Positions 9,428 through 51,329 of a stretch of 64,000 nucleotides of DNA are shown here, in pieces. Origin of the DNA: Perlucidibaca sp. (GTDB lineage: Bacteria > Pseudomonadota > Gammaproteobacteria > Pseudomonadales > Moraxellaceae); contig JAHFSA010000005.1 in assembly GCA_023265995.1 (NCBI GenBank), forward strand, positions 124,001-188,000, given 5' to 3'. The notes under the pieces are model-generated. The model was not told the origin of the DNA, did no database searches, and saw nothing but the letters and a program-made list of their open reading frames with translations. Both the position numbers and the translations under genes were made by a program. Each line of letters opens with the position of its first letter. Position 1 is the stretch's first letter.

Positions 9428-11089
9428 TCAGCTCTCAAGCGCCTTGTACTTTTCACGCAGGCGATTGCGCAGGCCCACAGCCGAGAGGTTCAGCGTCGCC
9501 ACCACCGTCACCAGCAGCAGGGCCGTGGCATAGACCAGCGGACGCGCAGCCTCGACGTTCGGGCTCTGGAAGCCGACGTCGTAGATGTGGAAGCCCAGGT
9601 GCATGAACTTGCGCTCGAGGTGCAGGAAGGGTGCGTTGCCATCCAGCGGCAGCGTCGGCGCCAGCTTGACCACGCCGACCAGCATGAGCGGGGCGACTTC
9701 GCCGGCGGCACGGGCAATGGCCAGGATGACGCCGGTCATGATCGACGGCGTGGCCATGGGCAGCACCACGCGCCACAGGGTCTCGGCCTTGGTCGCGCCG
9801 AGCGCCAGCGAGCCTTCCTTGAGCGCACGCGGGATACGCGCCAGACCTTCCTCGGTCGCCACGATGACCACCGGCAGCGTCAGCAGTGCCAGCGTGATCG
9901 AGGCCCAGAGCAGGCCCGGGGTGCCGAACACCGGCGCCGGCGCGGCTTCCGGATAGAAGATGCGGTCTATGTTGCCGCCGAGGAAGTAGACGAAGAAGCC
10001 GAGGCCGAAGACGCCGTAGACGATCGAGGGCACACCGGCGAGGTTGTTGACCGCGATACGCACGATCTGCGTGGCGGCGCCCTGGCTGGCGTATTCACGC
10101 AGGTAGATGGCGGCGATGACGCCGAGCGGAGTGACCATCACGGTCATCATCAGCACCATCATGACCGTGCCGAAGATGGCCGGGAACACGCCGCCCTCGG
10201 TGTTGGCCTCGCGCGGATCGCCGGACAGGAACTGCCACAGGTTGTGGAAGTAGGTGCCCAGCTTCTCGAACACGTTCATGTTGTTCGGCTGCGTGGCGGC
10301 GACGATCTTGTTGAGCGGGATGGTCAGGCTGTTGCCCTGGGCCGTGACGAAGGTGGCGCTGTCACGCGCGGACTGCTGCTTGATCTGGTCGAGCTTGCCG
10401 GCCAGGGCGGCGTAGCGCTGGTCCAGCGTGCTGCGCTCGGCGGAGATCGCGGCCTGGGCCTCGGGCGTCATCTCGTTGCGCAGGGTCAGCTTCTTCTCCT
10501 GCAGACGCAGTTTCTCGATGCCGAAGTTGATGCTGCCGATGTCACCCTTCTCGATGTCGGCCACCTGCGTCAGCAGGTCATTGCTGCGTGCAATACGCGT
10601 CTGCAGCGCATCCCAGGCGGCCTTGCCCTGCGCCACCACGGCGCCATTCTCGCTCACCGACTGCAGGCGACCGTAGAAATTGCCCCACTCGTAGCGTTCC
10701 AGCGTGACGATGTCGGTCGGGTACTTGATGCTGCTGAGACCGTCGGCGAAGACCCAGCGGAAGTCGGCACCGGTGAGATCACGGTTGCCGAGCTTGAGCG
10801 AGATGCGCTCGATGGAAGCCTTGCCGGCCGGAATCTGCAAACCGGCTTCCTGCAGACGCTTGGCGGTATCGACCTTGCGATCGTAGATCTCGCCGAGCAG
10901 GACTTCGCTGCTGCCGCTGCCGGGCGCGCTGTAGCTGGCCTGCATGACGTCAGCCGGCCAGAAGTGGCCGAGACCACGCACCGCGATCAGGCCGAGGATG
11001 CCGGCGACCATGATCAGCGAGATGGCGACCGTGCCGGCATTGAGCCAGACCCAGGCCTCACCGGACTTGAAGTATTCGCGTGTCTTCAT
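9428..11089 (-). CDS. pstA: Phosphate ABC transporter permease PstA, long form
   Basis: 553 residues, nearly twice the length of E. coli PstA. One membrane helix near residues 18-40 is followed by about 240 residues, including a heptad-like segment (EKLRLQEKKLTLRNEMTPE), before the permease domain from about residue 286. That domain holds the EAA-type motif GSLALGATKAETLWRVVLPM. The insertion is probably periplasmic. Long PstA proteins are known in Pseudomonas and relatives. With PstC it forms the phosphate channel. It starts 15 bp after pstC, with GGGAC upstream. Confidence 0.93.
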   Translation of the reverse strand: MKTREYFKSGEAWVWLNAGTVAISLIMVAGILGLIAVRGLGHFWPADVMQASYSAPGSGSSEVLLGEIYDRKVDTAKRLQEAGLQIPAGKASIERISLKLGNRDLTGADFRWVFADGLSSIKYPTDIVTLERYEWGNFYGRLQSVSENGAVVAQGKAAWDALQTRIARSNDLLTQVADIEKGDIGSINFGIEKLRLQEKKLTLRNEMTPEAQAAISAERSTLDQRYAALAGKLDQIKQQSARDSATFVTAQGNSLTIPLNKIVAATQPNNMNVFEKLGTYFHNLWQFLSGDPREANTEGGVFPAIFGTVMMVLMMTVMVTPLGVIAAIYLREYASQGAATQIVRIAVNNLAGVPSIVYGVFGLGFFVYFLGGNIDRIFYPEAAPAPVFGTPGLLWASITLALLTLPVVIVATEEGLARIPRALKEGSLALGATKAETLWRVVLPMATPSIMTGVILAIARAAGEVAPLMLVGVVKLAPTLPLDGNAPFLHLERKFMHLGFHIYDVGFQSPNVEAARPLVYATALLLVTVVATLNLSAVGLRNRLREKYKALES

Positions 11090-23582: not shown

Positions 23583-24004
23583 GACCGACTCTCCCCCGTT
23601 GTTATTGTTGTCCTGTCCGCGCCGTCATCTGCCGGCGGCATGGCCGCCAGCGTCTCGGGCCGCGAGCACAGCCAGGCCAGCACCAGGACCATGCAGGTCG
23701 TGGCCGGCAGCGCCACCCAAAGCGGCGAACCACCCAGCCAGAGCAGCAGCGCGCACAGCGACATGCCGACCGCCGCGCTCCACTTGGCGCGGCGGCTGAC
23801 CAGACGACCGTTGTTCCAGTTCTGCAGCAGAGGCCCGAACACCGAATGTGCGAGCAGCCAGGCATGCAGCCGTGGCGAGCTGCGCGCCGCCGCCCAGGCC
23901 GCGACAAGAATGAAGACCGTGGTTGGCAGCCCCGGCACGAACAGGCCTATCAGGCCCAGAGCCAGACTGAATACGGCAAGGATGCGGAGCAATACTGCGG
24001 ACAC
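23579..24004 (-). CDS. YbaN/DUF454 family membrane protein
   Basis: 141 residues with three or four hydrophobic segments. The family sequence GLIGLFVPGLPTTVFILVAAWAAARSSPRLHAWLLAHSVFGP is clear. The function is unknown. The C-terminal tail (AMPPADDGADRTTITTGESR) is polar and less conserved in character. Its stop overlaps the cstA start in ATGA-type fashion, so the two are probably translated together. Confidence 0.9.
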   Translation of the reverse strand: MSAVLLRILAVFSLALGLIGLFVPGLPTTVFILVAAWAAARSSPRLHAWLLAHSVFGPLLQNWNNGRLVSRRAKWSAAVGMSLCALLLWLGGSPLWVALPATTCMVLVLAWLCSRPETLAAMPPADDGADRTTITTGESRS

Positions 24005-24112
24005 TCTCTCTTCCTCAGTCAGAGACTGTCGTCGGCACAGGGCAGCCGACAGACTTGCTCATCAGAGCAGAGAAAACCTCAATGAGACCGCTGAATGGTA
24101 TCAAAACTCATG

Positions 24113-25663
24113 TCAGCCCGCCTCTTCCTGTTTTCGGCAGTCAAGCTCGATGCCTTTTCTTTTCAACTCAGTTATCGTCAATAACTTAACCCAGACCCAT
24201 GTAATTTCAGTGGCCTTGCACGGAATATATTCCTTCTGGAACTCCCGGCTTTGCCATATTTCCCTGTCACTAACAAACAGTCCGGGTCGCAGTCCTTCAA
24301 AAAGAAATATGACATCCGGCGAGCTTCTCATGACATATGCACCATCGCCGGCCTGATGAGCATATGCCAGGCTTCTGTCCCTGTGACCATGGAGAGCTAT
24401 ATACCCGTCATTCAAGCCCAGCATATCGATCGTCGGCAACTCGGAATAGTATGGCGTAATGCCTGCCGCACTGAGCGCAACCCTTGATCCCGCAGGAAAA
24501 TTTTCCTTCAACCACAGTCCGGCAGCTTTTCTCTCAATGAACGCACTCCGCCATGAGCTCGCCTGCTGTTCTACTGGCACAGCCCACGAACTGGCCGCTA
24601 CATTGCCAAAATTATAGCCCCAGAAAACATAACCGAACGCCAGCAGCGCAAGAATTGTTAATGCCTGCGCATCATCTCTGAATGCATAGCCAATGGTGAA
24701 ATAGCATAGCGGAATTACTGCCAGGTACATCCTGAATCCAACCATATTGTCGCCGCCCTGCAACGTGGTCTGTGCAATCCATGCCAGAAAGATCATCAGC
24801 AACGGTATGGCCGCGCTGCCAATTTTTTGCCAGCGCAACAGAAACGCACATGCCAGAAGGGCCAGAACAGGTGCATAATGCCTGGAAAACAGGGCAAGAT
24901 AGGTCAGCCCCTGATCAAGATTATCCAGACCAGCGCCGGACTTCGCATAATATGTTGCCGGCAGCCAACTGCCATAGCTCAGCCTGATAAACACATAAAC
25001 AGGGGCAAGCATTACTGCAAGCGTTGCCAGCGCTCTTGCTCCTGAAGATATTGATTTCGCACGATATGCCCGCCAGATCACGATTATAAACGAGACCAAC
25101 AGCCCTTCCGGACGAACCAATACAAGAACAAAAAGAACAGGCAAAATAAAATCATGCCTCCGGGAGAATCTCTCCCGATCGCTATCAAAAAGACAGCCTG
25201 ATGCCACAAGCACCAATCCGGAAAACAAAATTGTCTCGAGACCATTTCCCGAATAGAACGCAAAATCTCCGGTTATTGTCAGACCCAAGGCCGGCACAGC
25301 AGCCTGCCAAGTACTCAGGCCACGCCGGCAACCCATAAAATAGATCGCAGAAACAACAAATACACCCGAGAAAAAACTCAGGGCCTGCATTGCGTCAGGA
25401 AGCTCAGGACCCAGGAGATGGACTAATGAAATCAGCCATGGCCAGAGAATGCTGGAAAAGCCCTGCACCAAGGCCCCGTTATACGTCAGTCCATTTCCGT
25501 TGAAGAGACTGTTAACGTACACGAGGTATATATATGCATCATCACAGGGGGCATACACATGCCAGGCATGCAAACCAAGTCCAGCAGCCAGCGCCAGCAT
25601 CACTGATGCATTCTTGATATTTATTTCCTGCATCAGTCCGGTCTTCTCCACACTCAAAGTCAT
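24113..25663 (-). CDS. Multi-pass GT-C glycosyltransferase-like membrane protein
   Basis: 516 residues from the ATG at 25663; the ATGs at 25633 and 25753 are alternatives and no start has a clear ribosome site. About ten membrane helices precede a soluble C-terminal region of about 150 residues. The N-terminal motif CDDAYIYLVYVNSLFNGNGL (Asp41-Asp42) and the following YNGALVQGFSSILWPWLI match the pattern of GT-C enzymes such as AftB/LphB-like arabinofuranosyl- or mannosyltransferase homologues, which use lipid-linked sugars. Donor and acceptor are unknown. Base composition is visibly AT-richer than its neighbours, with many ATA, AAT and TTA-type codons, which suggests horizontal acquisition. 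Confidence 0.75.
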   Translation of the reverse strand: MTLSVEKTGLMQEINIKNASVMLALAAGLGLHAWHVYAPCDDAYIYLVYVNSLFNGNGLTYNGALVQGFSSILWPWLISLVHLLGPELPDAMQALSFFSGVFVVSAIYFMGCRRGLSTWQAAVPALGLTITGDFAFYSGNGLETILFSGLVLVASGCLFDSDRERFSRRHDFILPVLFVLVLVRPEGLLVSFIIVIWRAYRAKSISSGARALATLAVMLAPVYVFIRLSYGSWLPATYYAKSGAGLDNLDQGLTYLALFSRHYAPVLALLACAFLLRWQKIGSAAIPLLMIFLAWIAQTTLQGGDNMVGFRMYLAVIPLCYFTIGYAFRDDAQALTILALLAFGYVFWGYNFGNVAASSWAVPVEQQASSWRSAFIERKAAGLWLKENFPAGSRVALSAAGITPYYSELPTIDMLGLNDGYIALHGHRDRSLAYAHQAGDGAYVMRSSPDVIFLFEGLRPGLFVSDREIWQSREFQKEYIPCKATEITWVWVKLLTITELKRKGIELDCRKQEEAG

Positions 25664-25780
25664 CACCCTTGAGCGAAATCCCCTCCTGACAGCCTCATTG
25701 GCAGGAAAACGACTCTGGCAGCGCGCTGCCAGCACTCGACATCGTACACGCAATCTACAATGACATTATTCAGAAACCAT

Positions 25781-25802
25781 GTGCCGCAATCCTGCGGCAC
25801 AG
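25781..25802 (-). terminator. Hairpin after glmS
   Basis: TGTGCCGCA and TGCGGCACA form a perfect 9-bp stem with a 4-nt loop, 10 bp past the glmS stop on its strand. The following TGGTTTC is modestly T-rich. Confidence 0.65.
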
Positions 25803-25812
25803 GCTCTCGACA

Positions 25813-27639
<1,827 letters not shown>

Positions 27640-45443: not shown

Positions 45444-46130
45444 TCAACGCCGCGACTGGCGACGCCCGTCGATTTTCTTGCGGCGCTCGTTGAGGTAGTC
45501 GGGCAGCCAGCGCAAGCCCGGGAAGAACATGATGCGGATGATGCCGATCAGCATCCACAGGTAGGCGCCGCCATAGACCGCGCCACAGAACATGGTCACG
45601 TAATCGAAATTCGGCGACACATACTTGATGCCCCACCACGAAATGATGTCGGTCAGCGCCGCCGCCAGCCCGGCCGGGAATACCCACTGGTAGAGCTTGA
45701 GGCGGTTGAAGTGCATCGAGAACGGGATGCCGATGATGAAGAACGCCGTGGTGAAGCCGAACAGATGGGCATGCGTGAAAGCGATCAGCTTGCCCTGGCT
45801 CATGTTGGCGAAATAGGCCTCGGTGCTGCCGTGCAGGCCGATCTGGTAGTGCACCTCGGCAAGCCCGAAGAAGAAGGCGATGCCGAACAGCACGGTGGCC
45901 AGACCTATGCCGCGTTGCGCTGCCACCGGCAGATCGCGCAGGGAGAACTCGACCTTGGGATCGCGATAGGGAATGAACCAGCGCAGCAGCAGGCAGATGA
46001 GCAGGAACAGCCCGATCAGCGCAATCGGCCCGCCAATGGTGAGCCAGGCCGACGGCTCGGGCGGCACCTGCACGATGGCGGCATCGGTCACCGGAGCATT
46101 GCTGAAGAAATCGAATTTTTCGCCGGCCAT
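45444..46130 (-). CDS. Five-helix membrane protein with a His-rich helix, part of cytochrome cluster
   Basis: 228 residues from the ATG at 46130, which has AAGGAG six bases upstream. I count five membrane helices: around WLTIGGPIALIGLFLLICLL, IGLATVLFGIAFFFGLAEVH, IAFTHAHLFGFTTAFFIIGI, VFPAGLAAALTDIISWWGI and FCGAVYGGAYLWMLIGIIRI. Helix three begins with His-x-His (THAHLFG) and ends at SMHF; another His is at AEVHYQ. Such histidines could bind heme or a metal and pass electrons. I do not recognise the family. It is the last gene of the cytochrome cluster, 33 bp after the monoheme gene. Confidence 0.75.
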   Translation of the reverse strand: MAGEKFDFFSNAPVTDAAIVQVPPEPSAWLTIGGPIALIGLFLLICLLLRWFIPYRDPKVEFSLRDLPVAAQRGIGLATVLFGIAFFFGLAEVHYQIGLHGSTEAYFANMSQGKLIAFTHAHLFGFTTAFFIIGIPFSMHFNRLKLYQWVFPAGLAAALTDIISWWGIKYVSPNFDYVTMFCGAVYGGAYLWMLIGIIRIMFFPGLRWLPDYLNERRKKIDGRRQSRR

Positions 46131-46163
46131 GCCGTGCTCCTTAGCGTCGTGCGGCACTGCCGC

Positions 46164-46940
46164 TCAGGCACCCTTCAGGCGGACATAGAGCAGCGCGCCG
46201 GCCTGCTTGACCGCCGTCGTGATGGCGCCGTCGAGATCCTTGCCGGTCGCCGCCGGCAGCTGGTTGACCATGCGCCCGGTGAACGACGGATAGATCTTGC
46301 TGGCCTTGGCCTGCGGCACGGCATCGGCATGCAGAACCTGGACGCGAGTGACCTTGAGCTGGCGATCGGTGGCCATGAGCAGGAAGAAGACCTTGCCCTG
46401 GTAGGTGGCCGGGAAGATCAGCGCGGTCCCGGCCGGATGGCGATTTTCCAGCGGAATGTAGATCGTGTTCTCGTCGGCCTTGCCCAGCGTCGCACCCAGC
46501 GCTTTCGCAGCCTGGATATCGGCCGGCGTCAGCACGGCATCCTGCGGCAGCCAGGTGGTTATGCTCGGGAACTGAGCACGCACTTCGCGCGGAATCAGAC
46601 TGGCGATGTCCAGCCAGGGACCGGGAGTGGCCGGAGTCGATGCCTTGTCGCCGGGATTGGCCTTGGCCTGGGCTTCAACGGCATTGGCCTTGCCATCACC
46701 ATCGCTGTCGGCGACCGCGATCTTCGCGAAGGCACCGGCATTCTTGCCGGCGGCCTTGAAGGCCTTGCCGTAGGGGTTGAGCGCAGAGCCGCCACCGTCA
46801 CTGTGGCAGGCATTGCAGGACGGCATGTAGCCGAACTCCTGCTTGTAGGCGCGGGCAAAGGCCGGCATGGCCGAACTCAGGCCCGGCAGCATCAGTGCCG
46901 TCAACGCAACAACCCAGGGCAGCGGGCTTGCTGGCTTCAT
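46164..46940 (-). CDS. Exported monoheme cytochrome-like protein with EF-hand-like loop
   Basis: 258 residues from the ATG at 46940 (AAGGA eight bases upstream). A signal peptide ends near SSA24, so the product is periplasmic. One c-type heme motif, CNACH, is at 42-46. A 12-residue loop, DSDGDGKANAVE at 78-89, has Asp/Glu at positions 1, 3, 5 and 12, as in EF-hand/dockerin calcium loops. The C-terminal part, ATYQGKVFFLLMATDRQLKV followed by a segment ending FTGRMVNQ, is reminiscent of FMN-binding (RnfG/NosR-like) domains but lacks the clear SGAT motif, so that is only a suggestion. Confidence 0.72.
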   Translation of the reverse strand: MKPASPLPWVVALTALMLPGLSSAMPAFARAYKQEFGYMPSCNACHSDGGGSALNPYGKAFKAAGKNAGAFAKIAVADSDGDGKANAVEAQAKANPGDKASTPATPGPWLDIASLIPREVRAQFPSITTWLPQDAVLTPADIQAAKALGATLGKADENTIYIPLENRHPAGTALIFPATYQGKVFFLLMATDRQLKVTRVQVLHADAVPQAKASKIYPSFTGRMVNQLPAATGKDLDGAITTAVKQAGALLYVRLKGA

Positions 46941-46972
46941 GAATCTCATCCTTCTTGTCTTGCCTCGCCGGC

Positions 46973-48670
46973 TCAGAAGCCGAAGAGGCTGGGCACCGTG
47001 TCACGCATGGTGGCGACCGATTTCTCGCCGGCCGCGCCGGCAGCCTTGAGTTGCTGATACTGCACCGAATCGCGCGGCGGCATCAGCTTGCTGGCCTTGT
47101 CCGTACCGGTGTAACGCGCCCAGTCGAGCGCATCACGAATCTCGCTTTTGTTGCGGATGTTGTCCAGCACCTCATCCTCGCTGGCTCCCGCCATGAAGTT
47201 CAGACGCTTGGCCGGGTTGCCGCGATGGCAGGCGAAGCAGTGGCTCTCGAACTCCTTGAGCACGACATGCTTGCTGATCTTCAGCGGCGGCACGCCACTC
47301 GCCACCGGCGGCGACATTTCGTGGGTGTCGAGGCAGCAATAACCGACCGGCTGCGCCAGCAAGGCACGCATGATGTTCACGCGCACCACAGGCCGTGGCG
47401 CGAAGACCTCCTCCGGCAAAGCATCGACACGGGCTTCAAGGCGATGGATGTCGTAGCCGCTGACGGCGCCCAGACTCTTGAGGTCGGCATCGGTGAACAG
47501 CGCCGCGACGCCGTAGACGCCATCGACGTCGTTCGCCGTCAGCACCTGCTTGGGCTGGCGCGGTGTCAGCGGATCGAAACGCGCGGCCAGCCTGGGCAGC
47601 TTGTCGAAAGCCGCGAGGTCTTCATTGTCGCGAGCGCCCTCTCCCGGCTTGATGTCACGCGTCCACAGCGATCGCCACCAGCCCTTCAGGCCCTGGCGTT
47701 CGCCTATGGGATCGCGATTGGGCAGATCGGACTCGGGCACGGCAATGCCCCTGGCCGGGAAGTGGCGCTTCTGCAGTTCCTGCAAACGCGCCACATCGGC
47801 ATTGGCGGCATCGAAGCTGCCCGGACTGTCGGCATAGCGCAGGGCCAGCTTGAGCAGGAGGCGACGGCAGTCATTGCCGTCGATGCCACAGCCATCCAGC
47901 CAGATGCGCTGGGTGACGTTGATGAAATTGCCCTGGTCGGTGAGCTGGTCGAAACGCTCGGGCGAGGCCAGCGGCTGCTTGATCGGAATGTGCATGTAGG
48001 GCGTGCTGCCGCCACGCGCCGCGGCAATGGCTGCCGCGGTTTCCTCCTGACCGTTGGTTTCGTTCCACGGACGCTGCGGGAAAATCGGACCGCCACCCTG
48101 ATGGCAGGTCGTGCAGATGGCGCGACGGGCATAGACGATGCGCGGCACGCAGCCGGCGCAATAGTTCTGCACCAGCTGGAACTCGAAACGGCCACCGGCC
48201 TCGTTGTAGCTCAGCACCTCGATCTCGTGAGCCTTTTCGACGAAGCCGAGGAAGAGCTGACCGCGTGGCGAGAAGCCGAGACTGGCGCCATTGCCGGACT
48301 CGAAGTCGGCCGCCATGACCAGGCGCGGATGACCGTCATCGGCCTGCGCCTTGAGCAGCGAACGACCATGCGGAATCAGCACCGCCACCGGCGCGCCACC
48401 CTCGGGGTTGCGATCCTGCAGCAGCTTGACCAGCTTCTCGAAGGGATACGGCAGCACGTCATTCTGGGTGATCAGATGATCGAACAACGAGCGCGTGCCT
48501 TCCGCCGGCAGGTCGCCCTGGGCGATGACACGCGTGGACAGCGAAGCGCCATCCGGCTGACCAGGTCGCGCCAGCTCGGTGATGCTGGCCGTGCTTGTTG
48601 TCGGCTTCTGCCAGACATAAAGCCCGATCAGCAGGAGCGGAATGAGCAGCCAGGCGAGGCGACGTTTCAT
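46973..48670 (-). CDS. Diheme c-type cytochrome, membrane-anchored
   Basis: 565 residues. An N-terminal hydrophobic helix (LAWLLIPLLLIGLYVW) looks like an uncleaved anchor. Two heme c motifs are CTTCH at 186-190 and CFACH at 478-482. An extra Cys171/Cys174 pair (CAGC) lacks the heme-binding His. The segment YCCLDTHEMSPPVASG is also notable. I do not recognise a named family. It lies 65 bp after the RoxA/MauG-like gene and 32 bp before the monoheme gene, so it is within the same probable operon. An electron carrier or partner for the larger cytochrome is inferred. Confidence 0.75.
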   Translation of the reverse strand: MKRRLAWLLIPLLLIGLYVWQKPTTSTASITELARPGQPDGASLSTRVIAQGDLPAEGTRSLFDHLITQNDVLPYPFEKLVKLLQDRNPEGGAPVAVLIPHGRSLLKAQADDGHPRLVMAADFESGNGASLGFSPRGQLFLGFVEKAHEIEVLSYNEAGGRFEFQLVQNYCAGCVPRIVYARRAICTTCHQGGGPIFPQRPWNETNGQEETAAAIAAARGGSTPYMHIPIKQPLASPERFDQLTDQGNFINVTQRIWLDGCGIDGNDCRRLLLKLALRYADSPGSFDAANADVARLQELQKRHFPARGIAVPESDLPNRDPIGERQGLKGWWRSLWTRDIKPGEGARDNEDLAAFDKLPRLAARFDPLTPRQPKQVLTANDVDGVYGVAALFTDADLKSLGAVSGYDIHRLEARVDALPEEVFAPRPVVRVNIMRALLAQPVGYCCLDTHEMSPPVASGVPPLKISKHVVLKEFESHCFACHRGNPAKRLNFMAGASEDEVLDNIRNKSEIRDALDWARYTGTDKASKLMPPRDSVQYQQLKAAGAAGEKSVATMRDTVPSLFGF

Positions 48671-48735
48671 GTTTCCCTGTCCATCCGCCGCAAAAAGACT
48701 TGCCGCCCGTAGGCGGCAAGTCAGCAGCGGTCACA

Positions 48736-51189
48736 TCACATCAGTTTCAGGAACTCGCGCAGTGCATGCTTGTCCTGCGGCGAGAGATCGACACCAAACT
48801 GGTGACCCTTGTTCTCGACCGGATCATCACAGCCCATGAACAGCGGACGGTGCGGATTCTGCGAGGCGAAGTTGGCCACCGGAGTGCCCTTCTTGACCGG
48901 GATCTTCGGCCAGCCCTGCATGTCTTCGCGCGGCGTCACCGTCATGTCCTCGGTGGTCAGCAGCGTCTTCTGCGGGCGATGCTTCTCGGCCTTGGGATTG
49001 TCCGAGGTCATGAGCTCGTCGAAGGACATCTCGAACTGCTTGATGCGGCCGCGCAGCGTGTAGTCCGGCGCGCCATCGGGCAGGAAGGTGACTTCGCCGA
49101 TCGCGTTGTTGTGCATGAACGGAGCCGTTGCCCACACCGACAGCAGCGAGATGTTGCGCATGTAGCCGGGGCCGCCGGTGACCTTGCTCTCGCCCAGCTT
49201 CATGCCGCCGATCAGCGGGATCATGCGGTTGAGCACGCGCGGCACGCTGCCCGGAGACGGCGAGTCCTTGTAGGTCTCGGAGGAGAACTCCTCCCAGACA
49301 TGGCCCTTGTTGTGGTTGTTGTGCAGGGCGCGGCACATGTTGGTGCCGACGATGTTGAACGGCGTGCGTTCGTCATTGCCCAGCCAGTCCTGACCGAAGA
49401 TGTCCTTGTCGGCGAACTGCTTCGGACGCAGGCGACCATCCTGATCCTTGGCCAGGAAGTTGGCGATGAACTTGGGATCATTGCGCTCGGCTTCGCTGTA
49501 CTCGGTGGTCCAGTAGTCTTCCTTGCCGAAAATGTGGCCCTGGTAGAACTTCTCCAGCGCGACCTTGTCGTTGCGGATGTTGGCCGGTGCCATCTTGGTG
49601 CTGTGACAGCTGGCGCACTCGCGGGCAAAGACCTTGCGACCCTGCGGCACGGCCTGGGTGTCGATGAAGCTGCTGCCCGGCGTGCCGTCGACATCCTTGG
49701 ATGCCATCAGGTAGGTCGGACCGCCGGTGAGCAGGAAGGCCGTGAGGTCATCCATCTTGGCATCGGCATAGTTCCACGGATCGCACTGCGCGGCGCACTG
49801 CATGATGCGCATCGGGCTCTGCTCGCTGCCGCGGCCGACCAGACGTCCCGGGTACGGGAAGTTCGGAACCCAGCACTCTTCCGTGCACATGCCGATGTTG
49901 ACGTAGACACGGATCAGCGCGAGATGCTCGCCGACGCTGTCCTCGCCACCCTTGAGCACATGACGGGTGTTGGCCTTCTTGATCTCGCCCGTGACCGGGT
50001 TCTTCATGACTTCTTCGAACAGACGCTTGTTGTGGAAGTCCATGATGTTGTTCTGGGTGCCCGGATTGTGCATCCAGTCGGAAGCCACCAGCGAGGTATC
50101 GATGGTGCCGAGACGGCCGCCCTTGAGGATCTGGCGGGCCGGGCTGTTCTGCGCAACGCCATGGAAGAACGCATCCGGCTGCACGGTATGCTGGTTGCCG
50201 ATGGTACCCGACAGGTTGGCCCAGGTTGGCTGGTTCGGATTCGCCGGCGGGTTGGTCGGATCGATGCCGACGTGGCACTGCACGCAGGGGTGACCGATCA
50301 CGTAGCGCTTGTTCTGCTTGATCTCGGTCGGATCATAGGCGGCAGTCTGCGGGTCGTAGACGACCTTGCCATCCTTGTCCTTGATCGGATCGGCGTAGTA
50401 CTTGCGGTAGCCGAGCACACCCGAGGAATGCGGGTCCTGGCACTTGTCATACCAGTTGGTCGAAGCATCGCCCTGGACGCAGTCCGGATCGTTGATCAGA
50501 CCCCACTTGCTGAAACGGACCGGACGCGTACGCGTGTCCAGCCACGGATAGTTCATGTTTTCCTTGCCGACCACGCGCGACTGGTGGAGATAGTTCTCGT
50601 CCTGGTTGCCGAATGTGCCCTTGAACCAGACATCGCGACCACGGCGAACCTGGTCACGCATGGCCTGAGCCTTGGCCGGGTCCTTGGCTTCGACATCCTT
50701 GAACAGCTGCGCGACATAGCGGCAGCCTTCGGCGTCATAGCCAGTGGGCTGGGCTTCGGTGCAGGGCGGCGGCACGTACTGGGGAATCGGCTTGGAGGTC
50801 CAGGTCACCGCGTCGCCACGCTTGTGGGTATCCGCGCTGGTGCCTTCCTTCCAGACCTTGCGTGCCGCCAGGGTGTCGTAGAAGTGGTCCTTGAACCACT
50901 GCTCGCGCTGCTTCCAGTAGGGCGTGCCCTGATAGATGCCGGTGGTCAGATGGCGATCAACCAGTCCTTCCAGCGACACGCTGCGATAGGTCGAGTGATA
51001 GGGCTCGGTCGACACCGGCACATGGCCTGTCGGCATGTCATAGGGAGACAGCGGCTCGACTACAGGCAAGGCAATCTTGTCAGGGACCGGAGGAACCGCC
51101 GGGGGGGCTGGAGGCATGGTGGCGATATTGAATACGACTGCAGCGCCAACGATGACGAGAGCCGAAATGCCCAGTGTTTTCTTCTTCAT
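48736..51189 (-). CDS. Large diheme cytochrome of the MauG/RoxA/CcP superfamily-like type
   Basis: 817 residues, with an N-terminal helix (GISALVIVGAAVVFNIA) followed by a Pro-rich linker, so a membrane anchor or signal. Heme motifs are CVQCH at 302-306 and CASCH at 525-529. NISLLSVWATAPFMHNNAIG around 679-698 matches the T-x-P-F/Y-x-H-N catalytic-domain stretch of diheme peroxidases, MauG and rubber oxygenase RoxA. Many extra cysteines (CTEEC, CAAQC) could form disulfides in the periplasm. Whether it is a peroxidase, an oxygenase or an electron carrier is open. It is the first gene of the cluster, and an inverted repeat lies upstream. Confidence 0.75.
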   Translation of the reverse strand: MKKKTLGISALVIVGAAVVFNIATMPPAPPAVPPVPDKIALPVVEPLSPYDMPTGHVPVSTEPYHSTYRSVSLEGLVDRHLTTGIYQGTPYWKQREQWFKDHFYDTLAARKVWKEGTSADTHKRGDAVTWTSKPIPQYVPPPCTEAQPTGYDAEGCRYVAQLFKDVEAKDPAKAQAMRDQVRRGRDVWFKGTFGNQDENYLHQSRVVGKENMNYPWLDTRTRPVRFSKWGLINDPDCVQGDASTNWYDKCQDPHSSGVLGYRKYYADPIKDKDGKVVYDPQTAAYDPTEIKQNKRYVIGHPCVQCHVGIDPTNPPANPNQPTWANLSGTIGNQHTVQPDAFFHGVAQNSPARQILKGGRLGTIDTSLVASDWMHNPGTQNNIMDFHNKRLFEEVMKNPVTGEIKKANTRHVLKGGEDSVGEHLALIRVYVNIGMCTEECWVPNFPYPGRLVGRGSEQSPMRIMQCAAQCDPWNYADAKMDDLTAFLLTGGPTYLMASKDVDGTPGSSFIDTQAVPQGRKVFARECASCHSTKMAPANIRNDKVALEKFYQGHIFGKEDYWTTEYSEAERNDPKFIANFLAKDQDGRLRPKQFADKDIFGQDWLGNDERTPFNIVGTNMCRALHNNHNKGHVWEEFSSETYKDSPSPGSVPRVLNRMIPLIGGMKLGESKVTGGPGYMRNISLLSVWATAPFMHNNAIGEVTFLPDGAPDYTLRGRIKQFEMSFDELMTSDNPKAEKHRPQKTLLTTEDMTVTPREDMQGWPKIPVKKGTPVANFASQNPHRPLFMGCDDPVENKGHQFGVDLSPQDKHALREFLKLM

Positions 51190-51247
51190 TGTTGCTCCGG
51201 GTGAGCTTTTTCAGAGGAGTCTATAGCGACTGGTTTCAGCCCACAAC

Positions 51248-51263
51248 TGGTACTTTAGTACCA
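51248..51263. promoter_or_regulatory. Inverted repeat upstream of the cytochrome cluster
   Basis: TGGTAC and GTACCA are separated by TTTA, centred about 66 bp upstream of the 817-residue cytochrome start in the mnmE-cytochrome gap. The position suits an operator or promoter-proximal regulator site. No regulator gene is adjacent. Confidence 0.45.
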
Positions 51264-51329
51264 ATTCTTGAGAAGATCAATATTTGCACTGATTTCCGGC
51301 GACGAACGGTTGTCGGATACCTGCGCCGG

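Follow-up and report, generated by a model that had tools for sequence, protein, structure and literature searches.

To our knowledge, the enzymes of the RoxA/fatty-acid-dioxygenase superfamily described so far are stand-alone secreted or periplasmic proteins. In RoxA, H394, the MauG-motif histidine H517 and the C-terminal-heme ligand H641 are reported in PMC6311187 and the first-heme ligand H195 in PMC4496055 and PMC10837239, and PA2077, of the same superfamily, oxygenates oleate as described in PMC4496055. PMC6311187 also reports that E. coli is not a host in which RoxA and MauG mature. A 2024 review (PMC10837239) gives the function of RoxC-type proteins as unknown, with oxidation of unsaturated cell-wall fatty acids as a suggestion, and its main text mentions neither Moraxella, Acinetobacter, Perlucidibaca nor Pseudomonadales. 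Here, we describe a locus of Perlucidibaca sp. (contig JAHFSA010000005.1, positions 124,001 to 188,000; this 64,000-nucleotide stretch is called the window) in which a putative distant relative of these enzymes, gene A, is followed in the same direction by genes B, C and D. These four genes constitute a conserved, previously undescribed unit, a conclusion well supported by the distribution presented below. The genes are:

Gene A, 51189-48736, minus strand: 817 amino acids (aa), CxxCH at residues 302 and 525 (C302-H306 and C525-H529); N-terminal hydrophobic anchor, MauG-like motif P690-F-M-H693-N-N and predicted axial histidine H796 (from the open reading frame (ORF), the heme motifs, a 26-sequence alignment and profile comparisons).
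Gene B, 48670-46973, minus strand: 565 aa, CxxCH at 186 and 478; N-terminal hydrophobic anchor and C-terminal cytochrome-c-like domain.
Gene C, 46949-46164, minus strand: 261 aa, one CxxCH (C45NACH49), alternative start ATG 46940; signal-peptide-like N terminus and, after the heme, a DxDxDG calcium-type (TSP3/EF-hand-like) motif, then a family-specific C-terminal domain.
Gene D, 46130-45444, minus strand: 228 aa, ORF open upstream to GTG 46157 (237 aa), no CxxCH; five-helix membrane protein with invariant HxH (H120, H122) and D161..SWWG.

All four ORFs are present on the minus strand, where a preliminary description made from the DNA letters had placed them, and a motif count bore out its five CxxCH motifs, which are distributed 2-2-1-0 over A-B-C-D. 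The gaps of 65 (A-B), 32 (B-C) and 33 bp (C-D) that it gave hold with the later starts of C (46940) and D (46130); the longest ORFs of these two genes give shorter gaps of 23 bp (B-C) and 6 bp (C-D). B was rightly called diheme (two CxxCH) and C monoheme and EF-hand-like (one CxxCH and the DxDxDG motif), and the AlphaFold2 model of D (mean pLDDT 79.3) has the five long helices announced for it; to call D His-rich was an overstatement, as the protein has 5 histidines in 228 aa.

The four genes form a conserved unit

A scan of genome contigs with A alone, which finds close relatives only, yielded 48 loci. The complete A-B-C-D set was present in 43 of them, with identical order and strand and with the 2-2-1-0 heme pattern in 43 of 43. 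Three of the five incomplete loci (L020, L031, L033) run off the contig end; in L048 only D is missing, and in L049 A stands alone, the same absences being returned by profile searches. When start codons are assigned by script, the distance is 100 bp or less between A and B in 31 of the 43 cassettes, between B and C in 34 and between C and D in 21. The widest gaps reach 712 bp (A-B), 618 bp (B-C) and 2553 bp (C-D), extremes which indicate that insertions into the cassette occur. An A-B gap of ∼650-710 bp was noted in five Solimonas, Sinimarinibacterium and Stenotrophobium loci (L029, L057, L038, L039, L051); in two of these (L029:10324-10962 and L057:10389-11021) it contains a membrane ORF of ∼210 aa, the one in L029 being a weak match to YdjM.

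The association is also found in class-wide genome draws, which overlap and were not chosen for A. Full-strength B was detected in 4 of 229 genomes (6 counting two distant matches), full-strength C in 4 of 185 (8 counting four weak, partial matches) and full-strength D in 5 of 274 (13 counting eight weak matches). The carriers of B, C and D were the same four genomes (G000, which is the window's own, G408, G421 and G491), D being found in addition in G603, which may lie outside the B and C draws. Among 97 genomes comprising the window's (2.64 Mb, 11 contigs) and its relatives, A is present in 12: all 7 of the host genus (two as contig-edge pieces) and 5 others. Among named A proteins of full length, the closest comes from Perlucidibaca aquatica (84% identity). 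Perlucidibaca aquatica BK296 and Agitococcus lubricus DSM 5822 are non-pathogenic carriers in culture.

The co-occurrence of the four genes in 43 of 48 loci, far beyond chance, and their coincidence in draws not chosen for A strongly support the earlier claim of one redox unit. The statement that it belongs to no recognised pathway stands within the literature and models searched: no Pfam or NCBIfam model covers the whole of B, C or D at cut-off, and no description of the cassette was found in open-licence PMC full text, in which an unnamed cassette is hard to find by words. What was a guess from one sequence is now a bounded, testable unit of four protein families, which appears to be carried by many water and soil bacteria and to be inherited or swapped as a package.

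Gene A is probably a divergent member of the RoxA/MauG superfamily

The residue conservation given below was deduced from alignments of hand-picked full-length proteins, the window's included (26 of 44 for A, 26 of 47 for B, 25 of 45 for C and 23 of 43 for D). The preliminary description had presented A as MauG/RoxA-like, and this held at the superfamily level. Comparison of A with an alignment of RoxB/RoxC/CytoC_perox-type proteins gave an hhalign probability of 98.4% (E 7.5e-15) over 133 columns, which cover the region from the second heme to the MauG motif only, and the probability rose to 99.2% when distant A homologs were added (the RoxA-like alignment A6 comprised 11 chosen proteins, and alignment A5 was built without L117, near-identical to L114). 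A profile of A and its distant homologs matched RoxA (PDB 4b2n) with a whole-chain E of 2.5e-5. In this match the landmarks are collinear: CASCH, then GY....L...WATAP[FY].HN (WATAPYFHN), then the C-terminal GH.F (GHDF...EYIKTL), in which the RoxA histidine of GHDF is chain position 641 and matches the H641 ligand of the C-terminal heme. RoxA H195, H394, H517 and H641 would thus correspond to A H306, H529, H693 and H796, the pairing of H195 with H306 being based on order and spacing only (CxxCH spacing of 223 residues between H306 and H529 in A, versus 199 between H195 and H394 in RoxA).

Two CxxCH are present in all 43 A proteins of complete cassettes. H796, which is aligned to RoxA 637-662, is invariant in 26 of 26 and in 12 of 12 aligned sequences. 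P690, F691, H693, N694 and N695 are invariant in the 26-row alignment, N-A replacing the G-S of P[YF]xHNGSVP; the MauG-motif histidine is lost in four of seven distant A homologs (L083, L085, L114, L116).

A nevertheless reached no curated cut-off, and the RoxA, RoxB and RoxC models (NF050033, NF050034, NF051462) left it unmatched at E up to 1. The inter-heme region, site of the Phe317/Trp302 equivalents, is not reliably alignable to RoxA. The profile built from cassette A proteins alone matched 36 PDB chains, the best being a cytochrome c6 (E 0.0035). VIA-align of the AlphaFold model of A gave its best Z (4.3) to cytochrome c1, with RoxA not among the rows; as this model is weak, the outcome of the structure searches says little. 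Since A lies under every curated cut-off, it is best regarded as a separate branch, that is, a predicted deep and divergent branch of the RoxA/fatty-acid-dioxygenase/MauG superfamily.

B, C and D are families of their own

B was considered as a second MauG-type enzyme and rejected: against the MauG/RoxA superfamily its hhalign probability was 7.4%, over 13 columns around one CxxCH. Its second heme domain is cytochrome-c-like (Cytochrome_CBB3 match in 23 of 26 members, best E 1e-5), and B is a diheme protein outside the MauG/RoxA superfamily. The A-B partnership reaches beyond the cassette: L104 (6467-12058) is a unidirectional trio of an A homolog, a protein of 299 aa that matches no Pfam family, and a B homolog, with neither C nor D. 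In L105 (1624-4086), a dienelactone-hydrolase domain forms the N-terminal part of a fusion with a B homolog; an assembly N run breaks the gene. C has one CxxCH in 43 of 43 cassettes and an invariant DxDxD motif after the heme; its match to the GEGP motif-containing diheme protein model NF041762 covers residues 37-109 only, at 63.2 bits for a cut-off of 300. Profile searches of the PDB returned nothing for B or D and a single, irrelevant match (a nanobody) for C.

All 23 aligned D sequences retain the HxH pair (H120, H122). A Foldseek search with D gave no match better than E 1.2. Its sequence relates D to a group of ∼253-aa monoheme proteins of the membrane (7 homologs, E 4e-10 to 2e-5), with which it shares a membrane bundle marked by H[IA]HLFG and D..SWW. 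All 7 homologs have a CxxCH domain between the first helix and this bundle; none of the 43 cassette D proteins has it. D therefore looks like a membrane cytochrome minus its own heme, which it perhaps gave up since B and C supply heme. These homologs (L086-L092, e.g. L089:8302-9063) are membrane proteins of ∼250-330 aa with a CxxCH and the HIHLFG / D..SWW bundle; the four that were scanned gave no full-length family match, the weak D matches were found in 8 of 274 class genomes, 7 of them read, and the neighbours of these single-gene homologs were uninformative.

The cassette appears to move between lineages

In the window, the cassette is flanked by housekeeping genes: MnmE- and YidC-domain genes upstream of A and a DEAD-box helicase gene downstream of D (Pfam). 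Elsewhere the flanking gene families vary from lineage to lineage. In the Oleiphilus-labelled locus L055, for instance, the genes on either side of the cassette resemble, by eye, those of a Baeyer-Villiger-type flavin monooxygenase (754-2259) and an iron-type alcohol dehydrogenase (9519-10739). Trees were computed from 44 A proteins (longer than 700 aa, without L023, L049, L050, L053 and L054) and from 47 B proteins. In the A tree, three metagenome-assembled genomes (MAGs) labelled Leptospiraceae (Spirochaetota) and one labelled Rhodocyclaceae lie inside a 14-member, otherwise Moraxellaceae group (support 98/95); their placement within the group is weaker (85/70), and the branch of the Rhodocyclaceae row is long. 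The betaproteobacterium Limnobacter is placed among Nevskiaceae. A quick B tree agrees in outline with the A tree, the Leptospiraceae rows being compositionally unusual. On the spirochaete-labelled contigs the flanks have a guanine-plus-cytosine (GC) content of 32-37% and the cassette of 38-40%, and two of these loci (L022 and L052) have flanking families in common, both of which make a simple binning error less likely.

The differing flanks and the Spirochaetota MAGs within the Moraxellaceae group indicate that the cassette appears to have been transferred horizontally between lineages. It has been held together across gamma- and betaproteobacteria and has apparently crossed into Spirochaetota. 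A plasmid-borne cassette was looked for and rejected: none of B, C and D was detected in 72,556 plasmid records at E 1e-5, and the matches of A were all distant rhizobial homologs (21 records, 4 of them read). Away from the cassette, the GC content of the window dips to 0.517 at 24001-26000, the other 2-kb steps being at 0.57-0.69.

Candidate control elements

Three further features lie upstream of A and between A and B:

Operator-like palindrome, 51247..51264, no strand assigned: TTGGTACTNNAGTACCAA with 1 mismatch; overlaps a weak promoter-like pair.
Promoter-like pair, minus strand: TTGATC 51280-51275, 17 bp, TAAAGT 51257-51252; seen by eye and below the scan threshold.
Terminator-like hairpin in the A-B gap, 48697..48722, minus strand: 11 perfect pairs, then TTTTTGCG; RNA fold z-score -5.36.

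The window shares the palindrome ahead of A with L014, L015 and L016, and L017 has a looser form of it there. At up to 2 mismatches it is present in four of the seven genus genomes, upstream of A in each; it is the sole site in G000, G001 and G002, and G005 has the exact site and two poorer ones. In two of the three genus genomes without a match (G003 and G006), A is at a contig edge. The reversed pattern, used as control, matched 11 times, in five of the seven genus genomes, and the palindrome 6 times, so the number of matches is no evidence; the position and near-perfect symmetry of the palindrome are. A search of the window that allows up to 3 mismatches finds this one site (0.01 expected). 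In L014, L015 and L016 it overlaps, by eye, the -10 box of a TTGACC-17-TATAGT promoter; in the window a promoter scan upstream of A found none, and the pair seen by eye is weaker than in these three loci. The candidate operator suggests a dedicated control of the cassette.

The A-B hairpin of the window has an 11-bp stem followed by TTTTT. Of the 46 other loci in which both A and B are present, only 4 have a hairpin at this place under a strict criterion (L014, L018, L024, L057). Equal co-transcription of A with B-C-D is therefore not to be assumed, and loci with the hairpin may produce more of A than of B, C and D.

Proposed function and its alternatives

The account that we put first, tentatively, is that A is a diheme enzyme of the periplasm, anchored in the membrane, which acts on a lipid-like substrate and is wired through B, C and D to the respiratory chain. 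A would be held at the inner membrane through its N-terminal helix; its H306 heme would be catalytic, and its H529 heme, with H796 as likely second axial ligand, would store electrons. A would insert oxygen into, or oxidise, a hydrophobic lipid-like substrate (an unsaturated fatty acyl chain, a fatty alcohol or an isoprenoid). The diheme B and the monoheme, calcium-motif C would be dedicated carriers resetting or draining A, and D the membrane point where those electrons meet quinone or the respiratory chain. The subcellular placement, the oxygenase chemistry, the lipid substrate, the direction of electron flow and the role of D are what we infer here; the preliminary description had likewise proposed what may be a periplasmic oxidase or oxygenase with its own carriers and membrane point. 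A bolder version, which we consider rather doubtful, is that lipid oxygenation in the periplasm is driven by electrons and not merely by O2, through a transferred multi-component system made of a RoxA-type oxygenase, its own cytochromes, a heme-less D, the quinone pool and its own operator. If A is indeed electron-driven, the superfamily gains a respiratory-chain-coupled form, and oxidation of lipids by A, if true, bears on the question of RoxC-type function.

The lipid-like substrate is suggested by gene neighbours, by the dienelactone-hydrolase fusion of the distant B homolog in L105 and by the oleate oxygenation of PA2077. Distant A homologs adjoin GMC oxidoreductase genes in seven of eight loci (L083, L084, L085 and L114-L117, not L104; the assignment comes from Pfam for L083, from the annotated records for L114-L117 and from reading by eye for L084 and L085), and patatin-type lipase genes are near them in three of the eight (L084, L114, L116); as L114, L116 and L117 are closely related, the eight loci are not independent cases. 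Sixteen of the 43 cassette loci, all from the Nevskiaceae clade, have a gene with NAD_binding_4 and adh_short domains, which we take to be of the fatty-acyl-CoA-reductase type; it starts at most 3 kb downstream of D. A 69% identical homolog is present elsewhere in the window's genome. Near-full-length homologs with at least 62% identity are absent from the same-genus A carriers G001, G002, G003, G005 and G006, which weakens the hint. This reductase type is found in 7 of 12 A-bearing genomes versus 1 of 85 others (Fisher p 5e-7, a test that ignores kinship).

Several observations weigh against the lipid-acting, respiratory-chain-linked enzyme. First, we know of no RoxA-type dioxygenase that requires electron carriers, so B, C and D would suit a peroxidase or a dehydrogenase equally. 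Second, the kinship of A with RoxA is distant: A falls below the cut-offs of CytoC_perox NF040606 (43 versus 150 bits, E 3.5e-11) and of RoxA-like_Cyt-c PF21419 (17.2 versus 26.7 bits, E 0.0039, residues 682-696), its N-terminal heme region has no significant alignment to RoxA, and RoxA is not listed among the PDB matches of the cassette-only profile at E up to 1. When distant homologs are included, two ordinary cytochrome c chains (cbb3 and bc1) outscore RoxA, the RoxA segments of which are individually weak (best i-Evalue 0.5). AlphaFold models A with low confidence (mean pLDDT 65.7), and Foldseek found no significant PDB match for the model, a MauG-complex chain at E 9.9 being noise. Third, the invariant histidines of D lie in one helix only and are ill-suited to a classic bis-His b-heme. 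Fourth, the A-B hairpin argues for unequal expression, as predicted from its sequence. Finally, of the 19 Nevskiaceae-clade loci, 16 have the reductase-type neighbour (L032, L044 and L056 lack it; L057, among the 16, is cut by the locus end), as against none of the 24 others, some of which end less than 1 kb from D; the lipid hints are indirect, deriving from distant homologs or from one clade, and are hints, not proof.

Ranked behind the lipid-acting enzyme, and somewhat unlikely, is a quinol-driven peroxidase, in which electrons would pass from the quinone pool through D to C and B and on to A, which would reduce periplasmic H2O2 or lipid hydroperoxides for detoxification and not for synthesis. 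A does bear landmarks of the diheme peroxidase/MauG type, carriers with a membrane protein would be needed by a peroxidase more than by a RoxA dioxygenase, the relatives of D include CxxCH-domain proteins of the membrane, and the GMC oxidoreductases next to distant A homologs belong to a family of which some members make H2O2. However, the classical bCcp model is not listed for A in Pfam or NCBIfam at E up to 1, and A, with 817 aa, is about twice the size of small two-CxxCH ORFs (310-409 aa); neither point is decisive against a peroxidase.

We find it improbable that the cassette is a respiratory or extracellular electron-transfer module in which the donor is a metal, sulfur or another inorganic species and A the terminal reductase or oxidase. 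Four redox-type proteins, one of them membrane-borne, would fit such a module, and the Leptospiraceae-labelled L019 cassette adjoins, by eye, cytochrome oxidase subunit-like genes; the characterised relatives of A, however, act on organic hydrophobic substrates as described in PMC4496055 and PMC10837239. The cassette moreover contains neither a porin-cytochrome conduit nor a large multiheme protein. Slightly less probable still is that A is a MauG-like maturase performing a two-heme oxidative modification of its partner B, C or D. MauG belongs to the same superfamily as A, the four genes are present together in 43 of 48 loci, and invariant aromatics such as those of D S164-W-W-G167 could be modified; yet no MauG-type dehydrogenase substrate subunit is recognised in the cassette, and B, C and D have no catalytic-domain match above cut-off.

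A rubber-degradation accessory is very improbable: although the window's genome holds two RoxB and one RoxC above the 900-bit NCBIfam cut-off, RoxA-like ORFs with PY[FL]HNGSVP are present in the carriers G408 and G421 (below the CytoC_perox cut-off; the Rox models were not run on them) and the carrier Solimonas fluminis HR-BB (L038) has rox and lcp genes as described in PMC10837239, RoxB was found in 3 of the 97 genomes (E up to 1e-20) and A in 12, with the window's genome as the only overlap. Rubber accessory was accordingly rejected as the principal reading, and rubber is an unlikely substrate, as only one of the 12 A-bearing genomes has RoxB (a count made with the RoxB model, not with those of RoxA or RoxC). 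The two RoxB and the RoxC lie outside the window (C4:47327-52587 and C1:85800-88244; L148, L149) and score 952, 973 and 995 bits; one RoxB adjoins RoxC, and each of the three ORFs has a third CxxCH (CRTCH) near the N terminus.

Comparison with described systems

MauG and BthA (bCCP_MauG superfamily, as described in PMC6405878) have, like A, a diheme peroxidase-type architecture. They differ from A in their function, which is exerted on proteins or H2O2. Both are also much smaller than A, and their gene context is different.

The Rhizobium pRL11 cluster at RL_RS32250 encodes two RoxA-like diheme proteins and a distant A homolog of 929 aa, which in tblastn is 30% identical to A over 54% of its length (A1 profile E 1.7e-58). 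The partners of this homolog differ from those of the cassette: an NADH:flavin oxidoreductase is encoded there together with a GMC oxidoreductase and a patatin-like phospholipase, and B, C and D were not found there by profile search. No description of this cluster was met in the literature, in which no search by its name was made. In Rhizobium johnstonii pRL11 (L114, 2429-14781), the NADH:flavin oxidoreductase, the two RoxA-like proteins, the A homolog, the GMC oxidoreductase and the patatin-like phospholipase are read in one direction, several of the genes being annotated as hypothetical; the order is similar in L116 and, without the patatin gene, in L117.

PA2077 and PA2078 (oleate 10S-dioxygenase and diol synthase; FadCcp) resemble A in being periplasmic two-CxxCH proteins of the same superfamily with a MauG motif and His-ligated hemes (PMC4496055). 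Compared by the description in that paper, they are shorter (last listed heme ligands H611 and H603, versus H796 in A), have PYFHNGSVP, and form a two-gene system for which the description mentions no dedicated cytochromes or membrane protein. RoxA (PDB 4b2n, Steroidobacter cummioxidans 35Y), with RoxB and RoxC, shares with A the two c-hemes of the RoxA core, and RoxA has CASCH, WATAP[FY].HN and the C-terminal GH.F...E[FY][IL]K in the same order as A. The Rox proteins have the motif PYFHNGSVP, whereas A has PF(M/L)HNNAIG; the first CxxCH is at 191 in RoxA and at 302 in A, which has a longer N-terminal part; and A is accompanied by B, C and D.

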